Position numbers and translations under genes: made by a program. Below, piece after piece: positions 35,590 through 39,529 of a stretch of DNA of 39,938 nucleotides. The notes beneath the pieces are model-generated. The model was given only the letters and a program-made list of their open reading frames with translations, was not told where the DNA came from and did not search any database. The stretch spans positions 1-39,938 of the forward strand of contig JALTZZ010000100.1 in assembly GCA_027051165.1 (NCBI GenBank), in the 5' to 3' direction. The stretch comes from an archaeon. GTDB taxonomy: Archaea > Hydrothermarchaeota > Hydrothermarchaeia > JALTZZ01. Each line of letters opens with the position of its first letter. Within the stretch, counting starts at the first letter, position 1.

Positions 35590-35901
35590 ATTTTAAACTT
35601 TGTCGTAGTATCAGAAGAAGATATTGCAGAATTTGAAAAGGAAGCAGGAATCTCAGATAGAAAGCTCTAAAACGTTAGGAAGCAAAACAAGGATATGGGT
35701 AAAATTATACAAACAGAGGTTCCAGAATAGGTCGATGATGAATTTATGAATAAACTTAAAGACATGTTGATAGAAAAGCTACAAGAAGGAATAGGAAAAG
35801 ATTATGCAGACATCAGACAGCACAACCTATACTTCACGTTAAAATTCCCAGAAATGAAAAATTTAGATTTTAATCTTAATAAAGAATTGAAACTTCAATG
35901 A
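35590..35901 (+). pseudogene. Remnant coding frame with two internal stops
   Basis: Directly after the cdhC stop, and in its frame, 103 codons read as protein except for TAA at 35668 and TAG at 35728, closing at TGA 35899. Readable parts: VVVSEEDIAEFEKEAGISDRKL, then NVRKQNKDMGKIIQTEVPE, then VDDEFMNKLKDMLIEKLQ, DYADIRQHNLYFTLKFPEM and NLDFNLNKELKLQ. The composition is clearly coding, and no frameshift is needed. It has no obvious start. I do not recognise the family. Decay by point mutation is likeliest; readthrough cannot be excluded by sequence alone. Confidence 0.6.
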
Positions 35902-35976
35902 AGAATTAAGAATTATTGGTAAACCAAGTTTTTTCAAGATTTCTTGGATATAGCAAAAATATCTGAAAAATAGGAT

Positions 35977-36048
35977 TTTATAACTCCCTTGCTGAGTCAT
36001 GACTCAGCAAGGGAGTTATAAATTTTATGAATTGTTCATAAAATTTAT
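35977..36048. repeat. 46-bp perfect palindrome overlapping a second inverted repeat
   Basis: Left element: arms of 23 bp, 35977-35999 and 36000-36022, meeting at TCATGA with no loop (TTTATAACTCCCTTGC... and its complement). Right element: arms of 14 bp at 36018-36031 and 36035-36048 around TTG (ATAAATTTTATGAA...). They share 5 bp. They lie between the remnant gene and amt. Possible roles are a terminator-like RNA hairpin, an operator pair, or the footprint of a mobile element; the sequence does not decide. Confidence 0.9.
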
Positions 36049-36062
36049 GCATTCCTCTTATC

Positions 36063-36105
36063 TGTTCTTATTTCTTCATATTTGTTCTTAAATACCTTTA
36101 TAAAT
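36063..36105 (+). promoter_or_regulatory. Promoter of amt-glnK with direct repeat
   Basis: TTTATAAAT (36097-36105) is a TATA box about 34-42 bp before the amt ATG. Just upstream TGTTCTTA occurs at 36063-36070 and again at 36083-36090, 20 bp apart or two helical turns, a fit for an activator or repressor dimer controlling nitrogen uptake. Confidence 0.6.
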
Positions 36106-36138: not shown

Positions 36139-37741
<1,603 letters not shown>

Positions 37742-38992: not shown

Positions 38993-39529
38993 TTAGAAAA
39001 CCTTTACCCTTAGCTTTGAAAAATCTTCTTTTATTTCAACATTGTAATTCAAATCCTTAAGAAGCTCCTCTATAAAAACTTTTATAAAATTCTTACTCAA
39101 CTCTGAGAGAAGAACAAGCGTATATTCATTGTTAGAGGTTTTAACAAGCTTAAAGAAGTTGCACGCCTCAAGCCTTTTAAGGAGGTCCTCAACACTTCTT
39201 ATTCTATGCCCAAGCTGATCCGCATGCGATTTTGCAATTTTTTTATGAAGCTCGTAGTATTCATCTTTTTTTTCAGAAGATTCAAGAAGCTTTAAAAACA
39301 TTATCCAGTGATCAACGTCGAGAATTATATGCTCACCCTCAAGAAGCATCTCAACATACGTCTCTATTTTTTCTTTATCCGATATTATATCCTTGTTTTC
39401 AGCATAAAACTTCAATGCTCTTCTTATTATTTCACTATTTGAAAGTTTAGTCTCATTTTTCAACTTCTCAAGAAGCTCTGAGGTCTCCTTATCCAAGGCT
39501 ATCGTTATTCTTGTAGGTATTTTTGGCAT
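38993..39529 (-). CDS. Ribbon-helix-helix regulator with C-terminal sensing domain
   Basis: 178 aa. Residues 1-45 (IPTRITIALDKETSELLEKL, SNSEIIRRALKFYAENK) are a ribbon-helix-helix DNA-binding unit. Residues 55-178 form an alpha/beta domain (EHIILDVDHWIMFLKLL, LLKRLEACNFFKLVKTSNNEYTLVLLSE, VEIKEDFSKLRVKVF) resembling extended archaeal regulators of this type. Ligand unknown. It lies 47 bp downstream of dsrC on the same strand, so control of dsrC or cotranscription with it is possible. Confidence 0.82.
   Translation of the reverse strand: MPKIPTRITIALDKETSELLEKLKNETKLSNSEIIRRALKFYAENKDIISDKEKIETYVEMLLEGEHIILDVDHWIMFLKLLESSEKKDEYYELHKKIAKSHADQLGHRIRSVEDLLKRLEACNFFKLVKTSNNEYTLVLLSELSKNFIKVFIEELLKDLNYNVEIKEDFSKLRVKVF

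Follow-up and report, generated by a model that had tools for sequence, protein, structure and literature searches.

A perfect palindrome upstream of amt in a hydrothermarchaeon is a probable insertion sequence scar abutting an unrelated, probable nitrogen-control array

INTRODUCTION

What is a 46-bp palindrome without a single mismatch doing in front of an ammonium transporter gene, and does it belong with the smaller hairpin that shares its edge? We addressed these questions in a 39,938-nucleotide stretch of archaeal DNA (the window) from a genome of the Hydrothermarchaeota type: the named matches to its amt product, 76 to 85% identical, lie in Hydrothermarchaeota and Candidatus Pyrohabitans. 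A preliminary description had treated the palindrome and the hairpin as one joined structure. We put the probability at roughly three in four that they are instead two unrelated features that abut, the palindrome being the scar of an insertion sequence (IS) and the hairpin the edge of a nitrogen-control array.

RESULTS

Geometry of the two inverted repeats

The palindrome and the second inverted repeat were both present as first described (Table 1). The arms of the palindrome (35977-35999 and 36000-36022) are 23 bp each, with loop 0 and mismatches 0, while those of the second repeat (36018-36031 and 36035-36048) are 14 bp each around a 3-nt loop, and positions 36018-36022 are common to both. 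The palindrome was thought very unlikely to be a product of chance, and our calculations extend this to the second repeat: given the base composition of the window, about 2.5e-9 zero-loop perfect palindromes of 23-bp arms and about 0.008 inverted repeats of 14-bp arms with loops of 0 to 20 would be expected in it. The predicted RNA hairpins are strong, as had been supposed, at -33.3 kcal/mol (z -11) for the palindrome and -11.1 kcal/mol (z -6) for the second repeat. The gene upstream, correctly recognized as dead, is a decayed VapBC-like toxin-antitoxin pair whose antitoxin remnant has 77% DNA identity to a copy at C124; better-preserved VapBC-like copies are found at C124 (L065) and C119 (L066). 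Elsewhere in the window, at 2112-2386 and 2947-2966, we observed TGAAAAGGAGATTGAAAG-type repeated units in direct and inverted orientation.

Table 1. Positions of the features around amt in the window
Feature	Position	Strand	Remarks
VapBC-like remnant	35657..35967	+	antitoxin with internal stop 35657-35892, short PIN toxin pieces to 35967
Palindrome, 46 bp, perfect: solo right-end hairpin of the IS	35977..36022	.	comparison with IS copies
38-bp unit TAACTCCCTTGC-TGAGTCATGACTCA-GCAAGGGAGTTA, an IS end	35981..36018	.	compared with full IS copies
Second inverted repeat: longer version of the conserved dyad, with no relation to the IS	36018..36048	.	
Core dyad TATGAA-N3-TTCATA, candidate nitrogen operator	36026..36040	.	
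Array of TTC(A/T)TA half-sites in 10-bp register	36035..36091	+	half-sites at 36035, 36065, 36075 and 36085, a weaker one at 36055
Likely amt TATA box TTTATAAA, directly after the array	36097..36104	+	inferred from sequence and alignment with relatives
amt, ammonium transporter	36139..37377	+	Pfam PF00909
glnK, P-II protein	37382..37741	+	PF00543
Ribbon-helix-helix protein with conserved C-terminal domain, candidate array-binding regulator	38993..39529	-	

The palindrome is the end of a multicopy IS

A search for other copies of the palindrome, proposed at the outset as a check, gave many matches. One half-arm has 39 matches on both strands of its own genome with at most 2 mismatches and 0 when read backwards, and the 28-bp core occurs at 33 places with at most 3 mismatches. 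The same core was absent from all 60 of the 60 other genomes searched, and an exact search of viral contigs gave no match. Altogether the core hairpin is present about 36 times in the genome; some 30 of these copies run on one side into the same DNA, whereas 5 stand without an IS body. The shared DNA is the 3' end of an IS of about 1.2 kb, the coding strand of which reads ...KEKLQALAES-stop at the right end, its TGA lying at the centre of the palindrome. The 38-bp unit thus consists of terminal-repeat arms around a centre that in full copies holds the transposase stop codon; outside it, but still within the palindrome arms, lie 4 symmetric flanking bases per side (TTTA/TAAA).

An inverted chimeric read had been named as what would refute the palindrome, and a sequencing or assembly artefact of this kind, or a collapsed repeat, might be suspected in a draft genome of 171 contigs with IS copies that look mosaic, as repeat assembly can make them. 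We regard it as very unlikely, since more than 30 places, differing in their flanks, have the palindrome core, which also forms part of a coding gene.

The transposase (343 aa) carries a DDE_Tnp_1 domain (PF01609, 70.5 bits against a cut-off of 23). It stays below the NCBIfam equivalog cut-offs of the named families IS1634, IS4, IS5 and IS1182, the best scores being 43 bits against 100 for IS1634 and 42 against 115 for IS4, and a search of plasmids returned at best weak Methanosphaera matches. There are 20 full copies, 82 to 97% identical, 3 of them with an intact reading frame. Their right end is a hairpin, TAACCCCCTTGC-TGAGTCATGACTCA-GCAAGGG, and so is their left end, TAACCTCCTTGC-ATCACTCATCCC-GCAAGGGGGTTA, with TAACCCCCTTGC and GCAAGGGGGTTA as the terminal inverted repeats. 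Each end therefore contains a terminal repeat and an inverted copy of that repeat. In G003 a homologous IS with 46% identity ends differently (TAGGGTCCTC); it lacks a comparable palindrome and may have a 7-bp duplication, TATGTAT. Hairpin ends are thus not common to the wider family.

Among 22 IS copies, the flanks of which seem to have been shuffled by recombination, no offset or length of target-site duplication rose above chance. Some copies have flanks in common (L050/L100; L055/L058/L061/L139), an indication that they recombined with each other or that their targets are repeated. The right flank AAAAGACTTCTTATCCCAAGAGACTC is identical in four copies (L055, L058, L061 and L139), possibly reflecting insertion into or beside another repeat, which could be another transposase gene. 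The copies themselves are mosaic (for example L036, L050, L055 and L100), the four-gamete test being failed by 80 to 90% of distant site pairs against 51% within 50 bp; this may reflect gene conversion between copies or an assembly artefact. In one copy (L060, 6927-6964, in C33) the loop of the left-end hairpin is inverted, as if flipped in place, and the 3203-bp contig C85 (L131) is bounded by two inverted left ends, as would be seen in a compound element or where a contig spans the interval from one IS copy to the next.

How the IS body was probably lost

Since each end is a hairpin, its inner arm matches, in direct orientation, the outer arm at the opposite end, giving short direct repeats on either side of the IS body. 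Deletion between these would remove the body and leave one of two hairpins of about 36 to 38 bp. Both kinds of solo hairpin predicted from this layout are present without an IS body, namely, five right-type (the window, C149, C17, C65 and C98) and three left-type (C77, C36 and C7). The right arm in the window ends GGGAGTTA, as the far IS end does, rather than CTTGGAG, the ending of the inner arm of the same end in full copies; this supports a deletion across the IS body. AACTCCC arms occur in solos and were absent from the full IS copies examined, among which the direct parent copy was not seen. While the IS copies, their two hairpin ends and both solo types can be read directly from the genome, we infer the deletion step itself. 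The suggestion of a mobile-element footprint holds for the 46-bp palindrome, a solo end of a multicopy IS, and fails for the smaller hairpin.

It is doubtful, if conceivable, that the solo hairpins are instead miniature transposable elements of 36 to 38 bp moved by the IS transposase, in which case the window copy would have been inserted here by transposition rather than produced on the spot by deletion. The solo units match the terminal repeats of the IS and lack a transposase gene, the left-type solos have a complete terminal repeat on either side, the variant arm AACTCCC is common to the solos in the window, C149 and C7, and prokaryotic MITEs down to 39 bp have been described (PMC10969869). 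However, the solo copies are few (8), each with its own sequence and with no burst of near-identical copies, a target-site duplication was not found, and the inner arm of the right end finishes in CTTGGAG, not GGTTA, such that right-type solos would in any case have to be joined to the left end. Like prokaryotic MITEs and other IS-derived mini-elements (PMC10969869), they are short, noncoding, intergenic, set in AT-rich surroundings and endowed with terminal inverted repeats common to a full IS of the same genome. They differ in being one IS end only, without a spacer, in having two kinds that match the two ends, in their low copy number and in showing no evident target duplication, and they are better explained as deletion products.

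The perfection of the window copy could also point to snap-back replication of one IS arm by template switching, with flanking bases copied too. This would explain the symmetric TTTA/TAAA outside the unit, the matching variant CTCCC/GGGAG, arms that are perfect over 23 bp including flanking bases and the extended flank symmetry of the C17 copy. We nevertheless think it improbable, as in other solos the arms are imperfect and end like the left end of the IS, and the nonpalindromic centres of left-type solos are not what snap-back would give.

Similarly slim are the odds that the palindrome has been kept because it terminates transcription in both directions between cdhC/vapBC and amt. The hairpin is strong (predicted energy, -33 kcal/mol) with moderately T-rich tails on both strands, and a scan with a bacterial consensus returned 4 terminator-like sites against 0.1 in shuffles, although the host is archaeal. 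Archaeal termination depends mainly on T-runs. The tails here (TTTTATGAAT and ATCCTATTTT) are weak, other copies of the palindrome form IS ends, and a terminator role is unnecessary to account for the palindrome.

Loss of a body by recombination between end repeats, with one end staying behind, resembles by analogy only the formation of a solo LTR, the repeats here being hairpin arms of 7 to 12 bp and the element a DDE IS. REP elements with RAYT tyrosine transposases (PMC3733652) likewise place short palindromic repeats at many intergenic sites. Such an identity was ruled out because the associated transposase is DDE_Tnp_1; moreover, the element has terminal inverted repeats and lacks an IS200/IS605-type tyrosine transposase and a GTAG tag.

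The smaller hairpin heads a conserved array

Comparison of the amt upstream region in relatives, another check that had been proposed, separated the two features. In the alignments the dyad and the T-rich stretch behind it are conserved before amt, whereas DNA further upstream is not, the upstream neighbours of amt differ and offer no orthologous empty site, and the palindrome is absent. Of 23 genomes of the class, 14 contain the exact dyad, with 20 sites in all, compared with 2 sites for the reversed pattern. Most of the 20 lie directly before amt, glnA or a gene for a ribbon-helix-helix (RHH) protein beside nifH. Among the 63 regions preceding amt, glnA and RHH genes, the exact dyad is present in 16 (0.02 expected), the dyad with at most 1 mismatch in 29 (0.1 expected) and with at most 2 in 39 (2.5 expected). 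Genomes of one genus are not independent in these counts, although the amt protein of the window has just about 32% identity with some of the others involved. Some of the 63 regions are common to divergent genes, and removal of duplicates leaves 33 dyad sites.

Chains of at least 3 strict TTCWTA sites were too few to count, and pair distances were therefore used. In 62 upstream regions, same-strand TTC(A/T/C)TA pairs numbered 31, 24, 13 and 8 at 10, 20, 30 and 40 bp, respectively, and zero at 9, 11, 19, 21, 29, 31, 39 and 41 bp, with shuffled controls giving well under 0.1 each. A spacing of 10 was not special in all other sequence analysed. Such phasing suggests sites on nearly the same helix face and cooperative binding.

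This conservation across the class makes nitrogen control the most likely role of the smaller hairpin, as had been proposed for the joined structure, the palindrome being unrelated to it. In the genome of the window the only good dyad near these genes is the one before amt-glnK, as those before glnA, the RHH gene and a second amt have at least 3 mismatches, and the regulon here may consequently be only amt-glnK. A second exact dyad (C5) lies inside a kinase gene and was taken as chance.

A candidate regulator near amt-glnK

The RHH gene of the window lies about 1.3 kb beyond glnK, and its product matches the RHH_1 domain (CopG/Arc/MetJ) with 36.5 bits against a gathering score of 20.5. Relatives are found in 19 of 23 class genomes, including 14 of the 14 of good quality, and, of 26 loci, 18 have the gene at most 1.5 kb from amt, glnA, glnK or nifH, often divergent with the dyad between. 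Members of the family (the window protein and L175-L200) have a C-terminal domain with invariant GEH.I.D.DH and R.E.CN motifs and are linked to nitrogen genes across Hydrothermarchaeia. A PDB sequence search with the protein alone gave no significant match; searching with the family profile gave CopG and SeqA chains as matches to the N terminus. In the predicted model (mean pLDDT, 82), the C-terminal domain (residues ~51 to 178) has Z scores of 7 to 8 to YslB, TRAPP Bet3, DmpR and H-NOX chains, a range that a common arrangement can produce, and we liken it weakly to the H-NOX/Bet3/DmpR-sensor group.

DISCUSSION

Our results lead us to propose that the RHH protein likely binds the array, although the identity of the binder and the direction of control are what we infer from sequence. 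It would bind cooperatively on one helix face and adjust amt-glnK expression to nitrogen supply. It is possible, with appreciably lower odds, that another protein, such as an Lrp/AsnC-type regulator, occupies the array and that the RHH gene is a mere neighbour. Some genomes (G003 and G005) have the RHH gene without a good dyad. Against this, a variety of layouts link RHH genes to amt, glnA and nifH, the dyad lying between genes that diverge; the R-x-T-I of the first strand is conserved, and the RHH protein NikR uses a TATGA half-site.

The NikR site is GTATGA-N16-TCATAC (PMC7055735), and NikR also combines an N-terminal RHH with a C-terminal domain; the protein described here differs in its N3 spacing and 10-bp tandem array, in a C-terminal domain not recognized as nickel-binding and in its nitrogen-gene targets. 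The curated NikR model was approached by one relative only, and weakly, at 16 bits against 83. The first strands of the two proteins are alike.

The open-access papers that we searched describe NrpR, which has a different operator, as the nitrogen regulator of Euryarchaeota. In methanogens this is GGAA-N6-TTCC (PMC2723118), likewise a dyad upstream of glnK-amtB, glnA and nif, yet different in sequence and spacing and without the 10-bp tandem array behind the dyad that is seen here. GGAA-N6-TTCC was found in 1 of 63 upstream regions, not the one before the amt of the window. Our survey of open-access work on RHH nitrogen regulators in archaea, NrpR regulons and Hydrothermarchaeota mobile elements, with subscription papers outside its scope, found neither the operator nor the IS described, and the conserved array is apparently undescribed. 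Taken somewhat beyond an even bet, we favour the view that Hydrothermarchaeia use an undescribed RHH nitrogen regulator with a sensor-like C-terminal domain, acting on a dyad-headed 10-bp array before amt-glnK, glnA and nif and doing the work that falls to NrpR in methanogens.

As an IS scar the palindrome itself is ordinary, though neat; the adjoining array is the more important of the two. The scar illustrates how a perfect palindrome can be what is left of an IS whose two ends are hairpins, and such palindromes need therefore not be regulatory. The exact 10-bp register yields a directly testable prediction, namely, cooperative binding along one DNA face. If true, the class-wide operator array and its candidate RHH regulator would mean that an uncultured archaeal class controls nitrogen by separate means.
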